Assembly: GCA_947627645.1 (NCBI GenBank) | Contig: CANQWV010000010.1 | Location: forward strand, 1-35,672 | Direction of reading: 5' to 3' | DNA from: an uncultured Lachnospiraceae bacterium | Lineage (GTDB): Bacteria; Bacillota; Clostridia; Lachnospirales; Lachnospiraceae | DNA length: 35,672 bases | Shown: in pieces, positions 27,638 through 34,764 of the stretch | Layout of the letters: the number at the start of each line of letters is the position of its first letter | How positions within the stretch are numbered: the first letter of the stretch is position 1 | Program-made: the position numbers and the translations under genes | The notes under the pieces: generated by a model | What the model was told of the DNA's origin: nothing | What the model saw: only the letters and a program-made list of their open reading frames with translations | Database searches by the model: none

Positions 27638-28732
27638 TCATTTCCCCGGCAGTTCTTTGATAAACGACTGCAGACGCTGATAGATCACCTTGACCTCCTC
27701 GCTCGTAAACAGCTTCATAAGATTGTTGTTCACCTGCTGCTTGGTTTCCGCGCTCAGGACCGCCTGTATGATCTCTTCTTTCTTATCGACATAATTCTTC
27801 TTTTTGAAATGTATGCCAAAGAAAGAACGCATCTGCTGTTCTCTTTTCCCCATCCCATTGGACGTCTCTTTCTCCTTTTTCGCGGGCTGGGGATGATTCT
27901 TCGTCTGGTTCTGGTCTTTCCCGGACTCTGACGCCTTCGTCTGGTTCTGGTCTTTCCCGGACTCTGACGACTTCGTCTGGTTCTGGTCTTTTCCGGACTC
28001 TGACGACTTCGTCTGGTTCTGGTCTTTTCCCGGCTTCGACGCCTTTGTCTGACCCTGAACCCGTTTTCCGCCCTTCTGTGTACGTTTTCCGTTGGCCTTC
28101 AGAATATTGACGATGTCCTCTGATATATGCCCGGCGATGTGGCTTATGATTCTCTCCACCTGCCCGTCCTTTGCATCGCCCGTATTTTTATCGTGCAGCG
28201 AATCCAGAATCTCGTCCTGCGTCACAATATCAAAGTTGAACGTAAACTTATTCCGGTTGTTCCTGTAATACTCGAGCGCGCAATCACACAGGTTCTCGCA
28301 CAGATAAGTAATGTCTACAATAATAGCCTTGTAAAAAACGTTCCCATGCCCGAAGTCAAGGTTGAGCGAGGAATCCCACACCACTGTTCCATCGCCAATG
28401 ACGACGATGAAGCGGTCAAGCCGATTAGTCTCCTCCTTCACTTTGGTGCTGTTGACATTCGGCGAGCCCTGATGCAGGTATGTGTTCCTCAGGTTGTAAA
28501 CAATCTCCCCGCTCATCCAGGGATTTCCGACGCTCAGGTTCTTGTGCCCCTGCTCCAGAAACGCGCCCAGATATTTGTCGTACCAGTCCATATACCGCTT
28601 GGATACGGACTGTTCCTCCGGGTACTCCGCCATGCCGCACATATCCGGCAGCGCAAGCGCCAGAGACAAGGCGGAAAAATAGCATTTATGCTTCAAAGAG
28701 CATTTAATATCCTTTACATATCTTTCTATCAT
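27638..28732 (-). CDS. Hypothetical protein; possible HEPN-like N-terminal domain, repeat linker
   Basis: 364-aa ORF; helical N-terminus with YNLRNTYLHQG (R-X4-H); GKDQNQTKSSES repeats; charged C-terminal region. Confidence 0.6.
   Translation of the reverse strand: MIERYVKDIKCSLKHKCYFSALSLALALPDMCGMAEYPEEQSVSKRYMDWYDKYLGAFLEQGHKNLSVGNPWMSGEIVYNLRNTYLHQGSPNVNSTKVKEETNRLDRFIVVIGDGTVVWDSSLNLDFGHGNVFYKAIIVDITYLCENLCDCALEYYRNNRNKFTFNFDIVTQDEILDSLHDKNTGDAKDGQVERIISHIAGHISEDIVNILKANGKRTQKGGKRVQGQTKASKPGKDQNQTKSSESGKDQNQTKSSESGKDQNQTKASESGKDQNQTKNHPQPAKKEKETSNGMGKREQQMRSFFGIHFKKKNYVDKKEEIIQAVLSAETKQQVNNNLMKLFTSEEVKVIYQRLQSFIKELPGK
27898..28045. repeat. 36-bp in-frame tandem repeat (~4 copies)
   Basis: ttcgtctggttctggtctttcccggactctgacgcc-type units encode (GKDQNQTKSSES)n. 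Confidence 0.85.
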
Positions 28733-28762
28733 AATCTTTGTCCTCGTATGGTTCCTTGTCCG

Positions 28763-28969
28763 CTTCAGATTCTATCTCAGCTTCAGATCCTGTCTCCACT
28801 TCAGATTCTGTCTTCACTTCAGATCCTGCCTCAGCTTCAGATTCTGTTTTCACTTCAAATTCTGTCTCTGCTATAGATCCTGTCTCAATTTCAGCTTCTG
28901 CCTCTGCTATAGATTCTGCCTCAGCTTCAGATTCCGTCTCCACTTCAGATCCTGTCTCAACTAAAGATA
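28763..28969. repeat. 18-bp minisatellite, 11 full units plus a partial unit at the uvrA2 stop
   Basis: Exact 18-bp register from 28763 to 28960 (cttcagatcctgtctcca consensus), ending with ctaaagata whose cta is the uvrA-like stop. Confidence 0.92.
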
Positions 28970-31615
28970 GCGCCCGGTAATGCTCTCACGATTCACCCGG
29001 ATCTCCTCCGGCGTCCCGCACGCCACAATCCGTCCGCCGTGAACGCCGCCGCCCGGCCCCATATCGATACAGTAGTCTGAATTGCGTATCACATCCAAGT
29101 CGTGTTCGATCACGATCACCGTCGCCCCGTTGTCGGTCAGATGGCGGAACACCTTAAGAAGCGTCTGCACATCCAACGGGTGCAGGCCGATCGTCGGCTC
29201 GTCGAATACAAACACGGAATCCTCCTGCCCTCTGCCCATCTCGCTGGCAAGCTTCAGCCGCTGCGCCTCTCCTCCGGACAGGCTCGGCGTCTCCTCGCCA
29301 AGGGTAAGATAGCCAAGTCCGAGATCATGCAGCACCTGCAGCTTCCTGTACACGTTCGGAAGATCCGTGCAGACGGCAAGCGCCTCGTCGATGCTCATAT
29401 CCATCAGCTCAGGAAGGGAATATCCCTCCGTTTGTCGCCCTGAATCACTCCCGGATTGCTTCTCCAGACAGTCTTCCTGAACAATCTTCTGATATTTTTC
29501 ACAGTTTTTTCCTGCAATGCCTTCCAAATTTGTTTTCCGATAATTCTCTGTACTTTTCTCTGAGCTCGTTTCCTGTCTCTTCCCCGAACTTAATTTCGGA
29601 ACCCGCTTCACGAGATACGCGTCCTTCGCGTAGCGTGAGCCGCGGCAGTCGGGGCACGGGATGTCCACATCCGGCAAAAACTGCACATCCAGGCTGATCG
29701 AGCCGGTGCCATCGCAGAGCGGACAGCGCAGCTTCCCCGTATTGTAGGAAAAATCGCCCGCCTTGTAGCCTCTGCTCTTCGCGTCCGCGGTCCGCGCGTA
29801 GACCTTGCGCAGCTCGTCGTGGACGTCGGCGTAGGTCGCGACCGTTGAACGCACGTTGATGCCAATCGGCGTGGCGTCGATCAGCTTCACATGATGAATG
29901 CCCTCCGCGGCGACGGACTTCACGTGCCCGGGCAGCTTCTCTCCCTTCGTCCATGCGTCAAGGGCCGGGATCAGGCTTTCCAGAATCATCGTCGTCTTTC
30001 CCGAACCGGACACTCCGGTGACGCAGATCATACGCCCCTTCGGGAAATCCGCCTCGAGCGGCTGTACCGTGTGAATCTGCGACGTAGACAGATGAATCGT
30101 CCCGAGAGAAAACAATTCCTCCGGCGGCAGCTTTTGCCGCAGATCGATCACGAACTTGCCGGACAGAAAGCCTCCGATGCGGGAGACGGGGTTTTGCTCG
30201 ATCTGCGGAACCGTCCCCTCGGCGATGACCGTACCGCCGCCCGCTCCTGCCTCCGGCCCCAGCTCGATCAGCCAGTCGGAGTGCGAGAGAATGCTCGTGT
30301 CATGATCCACCAGAATGACAGAATTTCCATCCGCGATCAGGTCGTCCATCACCCCTGTCACGCCCTCGAGGTTCGCAGGGTGAAGCCCGATGGACGGCTC
30401 GTCCAGCACGTAGAGGACGCCGGTCGTCCGGTTGCGCACCGCGCGGGCGAGCTGCATCCGCTGACGTTCCCCGGTAGAAAGCGTCGAGGCCTCGCGGTCG
30501 AGCGTCAGATAGGAAAGCCCCAGGTCCATGAGCCGCTTCGCCGCGTGCTGGAAAGACTCGCAAATGCTGACCGCCATCGGCCGCAGCTCCTCCGGGAGCG
30601 ATCCCGGCACGCCATCCACCCACTCAATCAGATCCGCGAGCGTCATCCGGCAGGCGTCGGCAAGGGAGATCCCGCGCAGCCTCGGCGCACGCGCTGCGTC
30701 TGAGAGCCTGCTGCCGCCGCACTCCGGGCAGGGGCCAATTTTCAGAAACTTCTCCACGCGCTTCATGCCCTTCTCGTCCTTCACATGGGAAAGCGCGTTT
30801 TCGACCGTGTAGACCGCGTTGTAATAGGTAAAGTCCATCTCTCCGGCTGTGTTCGTCTTCTCATTGTGGTAGAGCAGATGATGCTTATTCGCCGGGCCGT
30901 GGAAGACCGCCTCCTTCTCCCGCTCGGTCAGGTCGCGAAACGGCACGTCCGTGCGGACGCCAAGGTGATCGCGGGCGATGTCCTTCATCAGCGACCACAT
31001 CAGCGTCTGCCAGGGCGCGACCGCGCCCTCGTCGATCGTGAGCGTATCGTCCGGCACCAGCGTGGACTCGTCCACCGTGCGCACTGTCCCCGTCCCGTCG
31101 CAGCAGCGGCAGGCGCCCGTGGAATTGAACGCCAGATCCTCCGCGCCCGGCCCGTAGAAATGCACGCCGCATTCCGGGCAGACAAGCTCACGCTCCGCCG
31201 CCACGTTCATCGAAGGCGGCACGTAATGTCCGTTCGGACAGCGGTGCGAGCCAAGCCGCGAGTACATCAGCCGCAAGCTGTTCAACAGTTCCGTCCCTGT
31301 CCCAAACGTGCTGCGGATCCCCGGCACGCCCGGCCTCTGGCGCAGCGCAAGCGACGCCGGCACATACAGCACCTCGTCGACCTGCGCCTTCTCGGCCTGG
31401 GTCATGCGCCGCCTTGTGTAAGTGGAAAGCGACTCCAGATACCGTCTCGAACCCTCCGCGTACAGGACGCCCAGCGCGAGCGACGACTTCCCGGAGCCGG
31501 ACACTCCGGCAATCCCGACCACCTGATTCAGCGGGATGTCCACGTCGATATTTTTCAGATTGTGCACCTTCGCTCCGCGCACCTCAATGTGGGCGGGAAT
31601 CTTTTTTCTATCCAT
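28961..31615 (-). CDS. UvrA paralogue (UvrA2/DrrC-like excinuclease ATPase)
   Basis: Two ABC ATPase halves (GVSGSGKSSLALGVLYAEGSRRYLESLSTYTRR; TGVSGSGKTTMILESL), zinc-finger CPECGG/CPLCDGTG motifs, LSTGERQRMQLARA, LSGGEAQRLKLASE; lacks canonical UvrB-binding length. Confidence 0.88.
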   Translation of the reverse strand: MDRKKIPAHIEVRGAKVHNLKNIDVDIPLNQVVGIAGVSGSGKSSLALGVLYAEGSRRYLESLSTYTRRRMTQAEKAQVDEVLYVPASLALRQRPGVPGIRSTFGTGTELLNSLRLMYSRLGSHRCPNGHYVPPSMNVAAERELVCPECGVHFYGPGAEDLAFNSTGACRCCDGTGTVRTVDESTLVPDDTLTIDEGAVAPWQTLMWSLMKDIARDHLGVRTDVPFRDLTEREKEAVFHGPANKHHLLYHNEKTNTAGEMDFTYYNAVYTVENALSHVKDEKGMKRVEKFLKIGPCPECGGSRLSDAARAPRLRGISLADACRMTLADLIEWVDGVPGSLPEELRPMAVSICESFQHAAKRLMDLGLSYLTLDREASTLSTGERQRMQLARAVRNRTTGVLYVLDEPSIGLHPANLEGVTGVMDDLIADGNSVILVDHDTSILSHSDWLIELGPEAGAGGGTVIAEGTVPQIEQNPVSRIGGFLSGKFVIDLRQKLPPEELFSLGTIHLSTSQIHTVQPLEADFPKGRMICVTGVSGSGKTTMILESLIPALDAWTKGEKLPGHVKSVAAEGIHHVKLIDATPIGINVRSTVATYADVHDELRKVYARTADAKSRGYKAGDFSYNTGKLRCPLCDGTGSISLDVQFLPDVDIPCPDCRGSRYAKDAYLVKRVPKLSSGKRQETSSEKSTENYRKTNLEGIAGKNCEKYQKIVQEDCLEKQSGSDSGRQTEGYSLPELMDMSIDEALAVCTDLPNVYRKLQVLHDLGLGYLTLGEETPSLSGGEAQRLKLASEMGRGQEDSVFVFDEPTIGLHPLDVQTLLKVFRHLTDNGATVIVIEHDLDVIRNSDYCIDMGPGGGVHGGRIVACGTPEEIRVNRESITGRYL

Positions 31616-31760
31616 CTATTGACATCCTCCTGCGCGTGAATTCGTTTTCCCTCTGCTGTTCTCTTTGTATGTTTGCCCTGATGCACGCAGATTCATCTGC
31701 CGGTCTTGGCATACGGCCGGAACCTTGCCTTGCTCATTGCTCCCGTACTTTTTATCCACT

Positions 31761-31951
31761 CATTCATCTGCCGGCCTCTGCATGCACAGCGGCAGCTCCA
31801 TATCCACTATTCATCTGCAGATCCCTGTATGCACAGCGGCAGCTCCATATCCATTCATTCATCTGCAGATCCCTGCATACACAGCGGCAGCTCCATATCC
31901 ATTCATTCATCTGCAGATCCCTGTATGCACAGCGGCAGCTCCAGCCCGTTG
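31761..31951. repeat. 47/48-bp tandem array replicating the cbiO 3' end
   Basis: Copies at 31761, 31809, 31856 and 31904: cattcatctgcagatccctgtatgcacagcggcagctccatatcc. The last copy is the genuine cbiO C-terminus. Confidence 0.92.
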
Positions 31952-32646
31952 TCCTCCAGCAGCTTCCGGTTCGAAAGAATCTCTTTCGTCTCCCCGTCGC
32001 AGATGATCTTCCCATCCGCCATGAGGATCGTGCGCTTGCAGGTGTCCAGGATCATATCCAGATCATGAGACGCGATAATCTTCAGGTGCTCAAAGGAATT
32101 CAGAATGCGGATCAGATTCCTGCGGTTGCGCGGGTCGAGCGCGATCGAAGGCTCGTCCATCAGGATAATGTCCGGCGTCATGGACAGGATCGTCGCGATC
32201 GACACCAGCTTCTTCTCCCCGCCGGACATCTTGTAGATCTGCTTGTCCCGCAGATGTTCGATCCCCGTCAGGTGCAGCGCCTGCTCCACGCGCCTGCGCA
32301 CCTCGTCCTCCGGAAGACCGTAATTCCTCGGCGCGAAGGCGATGTCCTCATACGCCGTCGTCATGAAAAGCTGGCTGTCCGAGTCCTGGAACACATAGCC
32401 GATCCGGGAGCGTACCTGCGAGAGCGTCTGCTTCTCCACCGGAATGTCCATCACCCGGATCGAACCCTCATAATTCAGGTTCAGCCCTACCAGCAGCTTC
32501 AGCAGGGTGGACTTGCCCACGCCGTTGGCCCCGATCAGGCCGATGGAATCGTTCTCCGCCGCATGGAAGGAGATATCCTGCAGGATCGTCCTGCCGCTCT
32601 CGTATGCAAAGCTTACATTCTCTACGTCTATGTGTATATGGCTCAT
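31903..32646 (-). CDS. cbiO: Cobalt/ECF-type transporter ATPase
   Basis: MSHIHIDVENVSFAYESGRTILQDISFHAAENDSIGLIGANGVGKSTLLKLL; MSGGEKKLVSIATIL; ILMDEPSIALDPRNRRNL. Confidence 0.92.
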   Translation of the reverse strand: MSHIHIDVENVSFAYESGRTILQDISFHAAENDSIGLIGANGVGKSTLLKLLVGLNLNYEGSIRVMDIPVEKQTLSQVRSRIGYVFQDSDSQLFMTTAYEDIAFAPRNYGLPEDEVRRRVEQALHLTGIEHLRDKQIYKMSGGEKKLVSIATILSMTPDIILMDEPSIALDPRNRRNLIRILNSFEHLKIIASHDLDMILDTCKRTILMADGKIICDGETKEILSNRKLLEDNGLELPLCIQGSADE

Positions 32647-32770: not shown

Positions 32771-33574
32771 TTAACGGACGAAAAGGCTCCCGATCACCAG
32801 CATCACCGGGCACAGGCGAAACAGCACAAACAACCCGGCCCATACAATCAAATATACCACATCCTGCCATCGCATGGCAATGCGCTCTTGCATATAGCGG
32901 TAGTCTCCCTGATAGCCGCGCAATAACATACTCTCGTACACATCCTCCGCCCGGTCCATGCTGCGCAGGAGCAGCTGTCCGGCGAGGGAGCCCCACACCT
33001 TGAAATGCACGCCCTTCTGGTTCGGCGCGCGCAGCGAGTAGGCCTGCGTGATCCGGTTCACCTCGCCGAGCAGAACCGTGATGTAGCGGTAAGTCAGCAT
33101 GAACTGCGTCACCATCGCCTTCGGGAGGTGCAGAAGCCGGAACGCGTAGCAGAGCTTTTCGACTGAGGTCGTCGCGATCAGCAGGTACGAGGCCAGCACG
33201 CTGAACACGCCTTTCAGGATCAGCGTGAGCATGGACAGGACTCCGGCGCTCATGCGGACTCCGCCAATCAGAACGACATTTTTGTCAAAAAACGGATTGA
33301 GGACGCCCACAAGACACACGAGGGGCAGCACCAGGCGCAGCCGCCTGACACTGTCCCAAAAGGATAACTCTGATAACAGAAAAAGCGCGACCGGGTAGAC
33401 CACCATTCCTGCCAGCCCGATCACGTCGTATTTTTGAAAAGATACCACTGTCATAATGTAGCCGACCGTTAAGACAAATTTAACCAGCGGGTGAATCCGG
33501 TTCACCCACTGGTCTCTTGCGGCTAAGGTATCCATCTGATGGATCTCATGAATCGCGTTTCCGATTTTACTCAT
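32771..33574 (-). CDS. cbiQ: Cobalt ECF transporter T component
   Basis: MSKIGNAIHEIHQMDTLAARDQWVNRIHPLVKFVLTVGYI; TTSVEKLCYAFRLLHLPKAMVTQFMLTYRYI; the ORF can start upstream at 33640 within the repeat array. Confidence 0.9.
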   Translation of the reverse strand: MSKIGNAIHEIHQMDTLAARDQWVNRIHPLVKFVLTVGYIMTVVSFQKYDVIGLAGMVVYPVALFLLSELSFWDSVRRLRLVLPLVCLVGVLNPFFDKNVVLIGGVRMSAGVLSMLTLILKGVFSVLASYLLIATTSVEKLCYAFRLLHLPKAMVTQFMLTYRYITVLLGEVNRITQAYSLRAPNQKGVHFKVWGSLAGQLLLRSMDRAEDVYESMLLRGYQGDYRYMQERIAMRWQDVVYLIVWAGLFVLFRLCPVMLVIGSLFVR

Positions 33575-33800
33575 GCCGTTTTTTTTCTTTCTAATGAATT
33601 TTTTACAGCCTGCCCTTTCTTTCGGGAGAGCTTTGCTCATGCCGTCTTTTTCTTTCTGCTGAATTTTTACAGCCTGCCCTTTCTTTTTGGAGAACGTTGC
33701 TCATGCCGTCTTTTTCTTTCTGCTGAATTTTTAACAGCCCGTCCTTTTGTTTTGAAAGGCTCTGCTCACGCCGCTTTCTTCTTTCGGAAAAATTTGAACA
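33571..33800. repeat. ~65-bp tandem array of the cbiM-stop/cbiQ-start junction
   Basis: tcatgccg units at 33571, 33637, 33701 and 33766 (66/64/65 bp) with ctttttctttctgctgaatttttacagcctgccctttc. On the minus strand each of three units reads ...aaaaacggcATGAG(C/T)AAa... Confidence 0.9.
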
Positions 33801-34764
33801 GATAGCACGCCCCGACGCAGACAGCCACGACGACCAGACAGCCGACGATGCCGGAGAATGTCGTCCCCAGCTCAGACTCTGAGCCTTTGAACGCGTAGTC
33901 CGGAAGCAGGGAGGTGAATTTCTGGACAGAGCCCGCCGCCTGATATACGCCGCCCTCCGCCGCCAGCTCCGTGGAACCGGTGATGCGCTCGATCGACCAT
34001 TCCAGTCCGTCCGGGAAGGAAGAAGCCACGAGCGAAAGCAGTCCGCCGATCAATGCAGCCGCAACCGCAAGGATCCCAAGCGTTTTCTTAAAGGAGAATC
34101 TGCCCTCCTTCTGCTCCGCCCGGGAAGCTCCGAACAGAAGCTCCGGCCTCGCCTCATGCACGAACACGAGCACTGCCGCCGTAATCAGGCCTTCCACGAA
34201 ACCAATCGCCAGATGAATCGGCTGCATCGTCGCCACAAACGTGGCAAACGGAAGCTCCGTGACGCCGGAAGCCATCGTCTCAAGCGTGACGGAAAACGCA
34301 CCGAGCTGCAGCGTCAGCACACAGCCCAGAATAGACGCCGCGATGATCTTCGCGCGCGACATTCCTTTCTTCATCATCGGCCTCCAGATCAGCAGCGCGC
34401 CGACAAAGCAACCGTAGAACGCCATGTTCCAGATATTGCAGCCGAGCGCCAGCAGTCCGCCGTCCGCGAAGAGCAGGCACTGGATCAGCAGCACCCCGAT
34501 CATCGTCAGAAAGCCCGCATAAGGACCGAGCAGCGCCGAGAGAAGCATACCGCCGCACAGATGGCCGCTGGAGCCTGTCCCCGGAATCGTAAAGTTGATC
34601 ATCTGCGTCGCGAATACGAACGCGCCCATAACCCCCATTAACGGAACCTTCTTCGTGTCCGTTTCCAACCGTACCTTTTTTACTGAATAGGCTGCCGCCG
34701 CCGCGGAGCAGACATACATCGTACCCGCCACTGCCGGTGCAACCAGAGCATCCGCCATATGCAT
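33766..34764 (-). CDS. cbiM: Cobalt transporter CbiM with C-terminal PDGLE/CbiN-like domain
   Basis: MHMADALVAPAVAGTMYVCSAAAAAYSVKKV...TIPGTGSSGHLCGGMLLSALLGPYAGFLTM; C-terminal SFPDGLEWSIERITG with a terminal TM. Confidence 0.93.
   Translation of the reverse strand: MHMADALVAPAVAGTMYVCSAAAAAYSVKKVRLETDTKKVPLMGVMGAFVFATQMINFTIPGTGSSGHLCGGMLLSALLGPYAGFLTMIGVLLIQCLLFADGGLLALGCNIWNMAFYGCFVGALLIWRPMMKKGMSRAKIIAASILGCVLTLQLGAFSVTLETMASGVTELPFATFVATMQPIHLAIGFVEGLITAAVLVFVHEARPELLFGASRAEQKEGRFSFKKTLGILAVAAALIGGLLSLVASSFPDGLEWSIERITGSTELAAEGGVYQAAGSVQKFTSLLPDYAFKGSESELGTTFSGIVGCLVVVAVCVGACYLFKFFRKKKAA

Follow-up and report, generated by a model that had tools for sequence, protein, structure and literature searches.

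The 191 nt between the stop of cbiM and the ATG of cbiQ in a cobalt-transporter operon of an uncultured Lachnospiraceae bacterium very probably represent a local minisatellite, generated by tandem duplication of an ancestral overlapping stop/start junction and tolerated as one of many such arrays. It is a clean and polarised case of a coupled gene overlap that has been opened into a spacer. The window analysed here is the whole stretch of DNA, 35,672 nucleotides long.

Structure of the cbiM-cbiQ array

The operon is read on the minus strand in the order cbiM, gap, cbiQ and cbiO, and the features considered are the following:

33766-34764, minus strand: cbiM, encoding CbiM with a C-terminal PDGLE domain; 332 aa, ending RKKKAA-TGA; Pfam CbiM E 2e-56, PDGLE E 1e-29
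33722-33786, minus strand: repeat unit 1, 65 bp, holding the last codons and the stop of cbiM itself
33658-33721, minus strand: repeat unit 2, 64 bp, a junction copy with an ATG at 33704
33593-33657, minus strand: repeat unit 3, 65 bp, a junction copy whose ATG, at 33640, shares the cbiQ frame
33566-33592, minus strand: terminal partial copy, AGAAAGAAAAAAAACGGC plus ATGAGTAAA, with the ancestral cbiQ start at 33574 as judged from orthologous starts
32771-33574, minus strand: cbiQ; 267 aa; Pfam CbiQ E 3e-33
31903-32646, minus strand: cbiO, the ATPase; Pfam ABC_tran E 3e-31
31753-31943, minus strand: a second array of the operon found by TRF, a 48-bp unit present four times and repeating the cbiO tail (LELPLCMQGSADE-stop)

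TRF places the cbiM-cbiQ array at 33566-33785, with a 64-bp period, 3.4 copies and a score of 276, while the top score among 1000 dinucleotide shuffles of this sequence is 68. The gap is thus filled by three repeats of about 65 bp, as a preliminary description of this DNA had claimed, and these above-chance tandem units fall in the size range of minisatellites (about 10-100 bp). Identity is 91% between units 2 and 3 but only 72-77% between unit 1 and the others, and this greater divergence of the outer unit makes the amplification of the inner ones the younger event. A weaker periodicity of about 32 bp, half a unit, is also detected by TRF inside the array, with about 60% matches.

Four start-like codons follow one another on the minus strand, namely GTG at 33769, ATG at 33704, ATG at 33640 and the true cbiQ ATG at 33574, at intervals of 65, 64 and 66 nt. 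The GTG of unit 1 lies in a GTGA overlap and opens a 12-aa mini-ORF that ends at 33731; the ATG of unit 2 opens a 33-aa ORF, out of frame with cbiQ, that ends at 33603. The ATG of unit 3, 125 nt from the cbiM stop, is in frame with cbiQ because the last interval is 66 nt, and from it CbiQ would have 289 aa instead of 267, the 22 extra residues being mostly basic. The earlier claim that the unit lengths shift the frame, so that some decoy starts but not all read into cbiQ, that at 33640 among them, is correct; 33640 is in fact the only one.

It had also been proposed that the repeats regenerate a cbiM-like RKKKTA-stop tail overlapping a cbiQ-like start. Units 2 and 3 do so: they read AGA AAG AAA AAG ACG GCA TGA (RKKKTA-stop) overlapping ATGAGCAA, and their AGAAAGAAAAAGACGGCATGAGCAA encodes RKKKTA-stop in one frame while the second frame reads ATG AGC AA. 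The tail of cbiM itself departs from this scheme, since it reads RKKKAA-stop and its overlap is GTGA. The inner copies have thus preserved the ancestral RKKKTA/ATGA, which the present end of cbiM has not.

Ancestral overlap and history of the unit

The relatives that carry names are uncultured Lachnospiraceae MAGs, many of them 'Lapin' isolates and so probably from rabbit gut. Six of the eight same-genus relatives compared (G042, G033, G038, G035, G032 and G034) have no gap at this site: the cbiM stop and the cbiQ ATG overlap by four bases, ATGA, as in AGAAAGAAAAAGACGGCATGAGTAAAATC of G042. More distant relatives mostly have an overlap or a gap of a few bases. Because the overlap is found in most relatives of both kinds, sequence comparison indicates that it is ancestral. 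Another relative, G039, carries a single homologous 65-bp unit that is 82-84% identical to units 2 and 3 of the window. Unit number is thus 0, 1 (G039) or 3 (window species), varying as in minisatellites, in a comparison that is made between species, with one draft genome each, and in which draft assemblies may under-count copies. In G036 the cbiM-cbiQ gap is about 64 nt of unrelated sequence just upstream of cbiQ (stretch L030, 2930-3000), ending GAAACATGAATAAACAGTAAAAAAACGGCATGAGTAAG, which may have arisen separately by partial duplication of the cbiQ start.

The array could be an assembly artefact of a metagenome-assembled genome, the window being an entire contig of a 234-contig draft. We give almost no credit to such an artefact: the units show differences of 9-28% from each other, and the homologous unit sits at the same site in G039, which was assembled separately; the number of copies in the window could still be too low.

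When 47 genomes of the genus are searched with the window unit at the DNA level, the full unit is present in just two, the window genome and G039, in both cases between cbiM and cbiQ. The next-best matches are a core of 35-41 bp at the orthologous cbiM/cbiQ junctions of G033, G038, G042, G034 and G032, and a search of the own genome returns no further copy of the unit outside the locus. What is repeated at the core is thus the junction, and the unit is no dispersed element; the orthologous junctions strongly support the view that the cbiM end and cbiQ start were multiplied to give the repeats. A mobile or dispersed element with a preference for stop/start overlaps, like the mycobacterial MIRUs, would explain why the array sits exactly on the ancestral ATGA overlap (PMC12548453), but such an element is extremely improbable at a single locus of its genome, with cbiM-cbiQ as its only site among the 47 genus genomes and with a core that is the local junction. 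As it has no other site in the genus genomes searched, the unit is a junction amplified in place and not a mobile element.

Local duplication would have proceeded as follows. Ancestral cbiM and cbiQ overlapped by ATGA, and replication slippage, or unequal recombination, would have duplicated in tandem a short stretch across the overlap, which later amplification brought to three units of about 65 bp. As cbiM stops in the first copy and cbiQ still begins in the last, both proteins remain intact and the array would be tolerated. The duplication of a stop together with a start is harmless at any length for this same reason, invisible to both proteins; by the logic of the sequence, a stop/start junction is a permissive site for duplication. 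Tolerated slippage therefore explains the array, which is most likely near-neutral. Translation of the present cbiQ would begin at the weak in-frame start at 33574, possibly at the similarly weak one at 33640, or at both.

A tree of cbiMQO does not pair the window species and G039 as sisters (supports 88 and 88), and the nearest relatives of G039, namely G042 and G033, are without the unit. A single gain therefore does not suffice without either contraction to zero units or lateral exchange. Most simply, the unit was gained once and then lost by contraction in G042 and G033, which would have restored the overlap exactly; lateral exchange of the unit between species is possible, and local identity profiles reveal no recombinant or transferred tract with G039. 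The weak periodicity of about 32 bp suggests that two junction copies may make up each 65-bp unit, with marginal statistics: compared with a decayed junction copy of about 32 bp, the middle of the unit gives p 0.012 for unit 1 and 0.06-0.09 otherwise, and compared with upstream cbiM sequence p 0.03 for G039 and 0.13-0.50 otherwise, all uncorrected.

Tandem arrays across the genome and the genus

Arrays with a period of at least 10 and a TRF score of at least 80 were counted in 20-kb stretches, with samples of 50-436 kb per genome and genes called by a simple in-house hexamer caller. The window's own genome has 61 arrays in 436 kb, or 14.0 per 100 kb (stretches L047-L066). Densities in the same genus are 13 per 100 kb in G035, 8.5 in G038, 6.0 in G033, 5.7 in G042, 5.3 in G039, 4.0 in G036 and 2.5 in G005, against 0-2.1 in four other genera of the family and 1.3 in E. 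coli K-12. The excess over the four genera is 61 arrays to 2 in similar totals (p 9e-17), and the richest species of this gut genus has about tenfold more minisatellites than neighbouring genera. Nearly all arrays of the own genome are without a stop/start overlap, and given this genome-wide excess slippage is a sufficient cause of the cbiM-cbiQ array.

In the genus samples the unit length is divisible by 3 in 109 of 110 arrays inside genes and in 13 of 39 outside (p 3e-18), so that 26 of the 39 outside genes have units that are not a multiple of 3. Gene 3' ends lie under an array 17 times, against 3 times for 5' ends (p 0.003). The array on the cbiO tail also varies, with four copies of its unit in the window, two in G035 and one each in G039 and G042. 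From the excess of arrays, the 3-periodic units in genes, the 3' bias and the cbiO tail array, we infer that the cbiM-cbiQ array is a product of a general process that coding constraint filters. Arrays that span a stop plus the start of the next gene are rare in the census, cbiM-cbiQ being perhaps the only one. The genus offers a tractable system for the causes of tandem-duplication rate and for its filtering by coding constraint.

Loss of exonucleases was considered as the source of the excess. RecJ, exonuclease VII (XseA) and SbcD are all present in the own genome, and for this reason such a loss is not the cause.

Other repeats are found in the window downstream of the operon. A gene for a UvrA-like ATPase with a UvrA DNA-binding domain (28961-31615) lies directly downstream of the cobalt transporter genes, and it adjoins cbiO in several siblings too. 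The gap just downstream of it is filled by a degenerate array of 11 copies of 18 bp (28762-28959), and the predicted gene at 27638-28732 contains an in-frame array of 4.2 copies of 36 bp (27899-28051), a 12-residue repeat in the protein.

Translation at the junction and known systems

Predicted anti-SD pairing is weak at all four starts (-5.5 to -6.0 kcal/mol), the median for 907 non-abutting genes of the genus being -10.4 and the value at the ancestral cbiM/cbiQ junction -5.6. Because the predicted SD is equally weak at the ancestral junction, ancestral cbiQ probably relied on termination-reinitiation at the overlap. In the window, 26 nt separate the stop of the 12-aa ORF from the ATG at 33704, and 28 nt separate the stop of the 33-aa ORF from the cbiQ ATG. 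Published tests in E. coli and Haloferax report that coupling falls sharply with gaps of 13-20 nt and almost disappears with 22-38 nt (PMC10666635, PMC12548453). These gaps fall where published reinitiation largely fails, and tight translational coupling from cbiM to cbiQ is therefore probably lost or inefficient; the overlap or very short gap of a coupled pair is absent between cbiM and cbiQ in the window, and an overlap is present in the relatives without units.

The preliminary description had suggested that copy number could set the coupling between the transporter subunits. Copy number would then tune CbiM:CbiQ stoichiometry, with decoy starts and mini-ORFs that capture or relay ribosomes, more units giving a weaker or altered coupling. 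Such tuning would fit the start codons kept in units 2 and 3 with an SD as weak as that of the true start, the layout of the mini-ORFs (GTGA overlap, +26 nt, +28 nt) and the variation of unit number among species. We regard it as unlikely, since at 26-28 nt coupling is mostly gone (PMC10666635, PMC12548453), the outer copy of G039 has GTA and no start, the outer copy of the window is degenerating, and other arrays in the genome lack this layout. The suggestion is unsupported: the SD is the same weak one throughout, the gap, set against its shuffles, shows no remarkable RNA folding (z -0.87), an Rfam scan of the window gives no match, and slippage suffices. There is no sign so far that copy number regulates cbiM/cbiQ.

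Less probable still is a rheostat driven by slippage, in which zero units would give tight ATGA coupling and several a relay of weak starts. Were it to operate, it would set the CbiM:CbiQ ratio and switch on an N-extended CbiQ isoform, and precise contraction would restore the ancestral overlap. Selection for the CbiQ begun at 33640 is a further alternative, to which the basic character of the extension and its frame, owed to the 66-nt last interval, could point; in contrast, CbiQ of the relatives begins MSKIG with cbiM immediately upstream, the frame hangs on a single extra A within an A run, and the ATG at 33640 is no stronger than the native start, which together make such selection highly improbable. 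Under tolerated duplication an optional N-extended CbiQ is likely a consequence of the array.

Among known systems, the ancestral cbiM/cbiQ junction corresponds to the ATGA termination-reinitiation pairs, as it has the commonest coupled form (-4 nt) and joins subunits of one complex, whereas the array of the window puts 191 nt between the genes and should remove tight coupling. The closest architecture to the array is that of the MIRUs of Mycobacterium, for example in the senX3-regX3 gap (77-bp and 53-bp units), which are likewise tandem units of similar size between paired genes, placed at a start/stop overlap and with a small ORF per unit (PMC12548453, PMC4213456); apart from these, we found in the open-access literature no account of stop/start junctions multiplied in tandem. 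MIRUs differ in being dispersed and apparently mobile, and in coupling through a -4 nt overlap, while the cbiM-cbiQ unit is restricted to a single locus, derives from the local junction and has mini-ORFs that end 26-28 nt before the next start. Homologous units are not scattered over many loci in the own genome or the genus, and the unit ORFs are not coupled by a -4 nt overlap despite the ancestral ATGA site. As it lacks both the dispersal of MIRUs and their coupling through a -4 nt overlap, we class the array as an ordinary bacterial minisatellite derived from a gene junction. With bacterial minisatellites and VNTR loci it shares head-to-tail, diverged units of 10-100 bp, a copy number that varies among related genomes and, for the arrays inside genes, a unit length that is a multiple of 3; it differs from them in that its unit takes in the stop of an upstream gene together with the start of the gene that follows.
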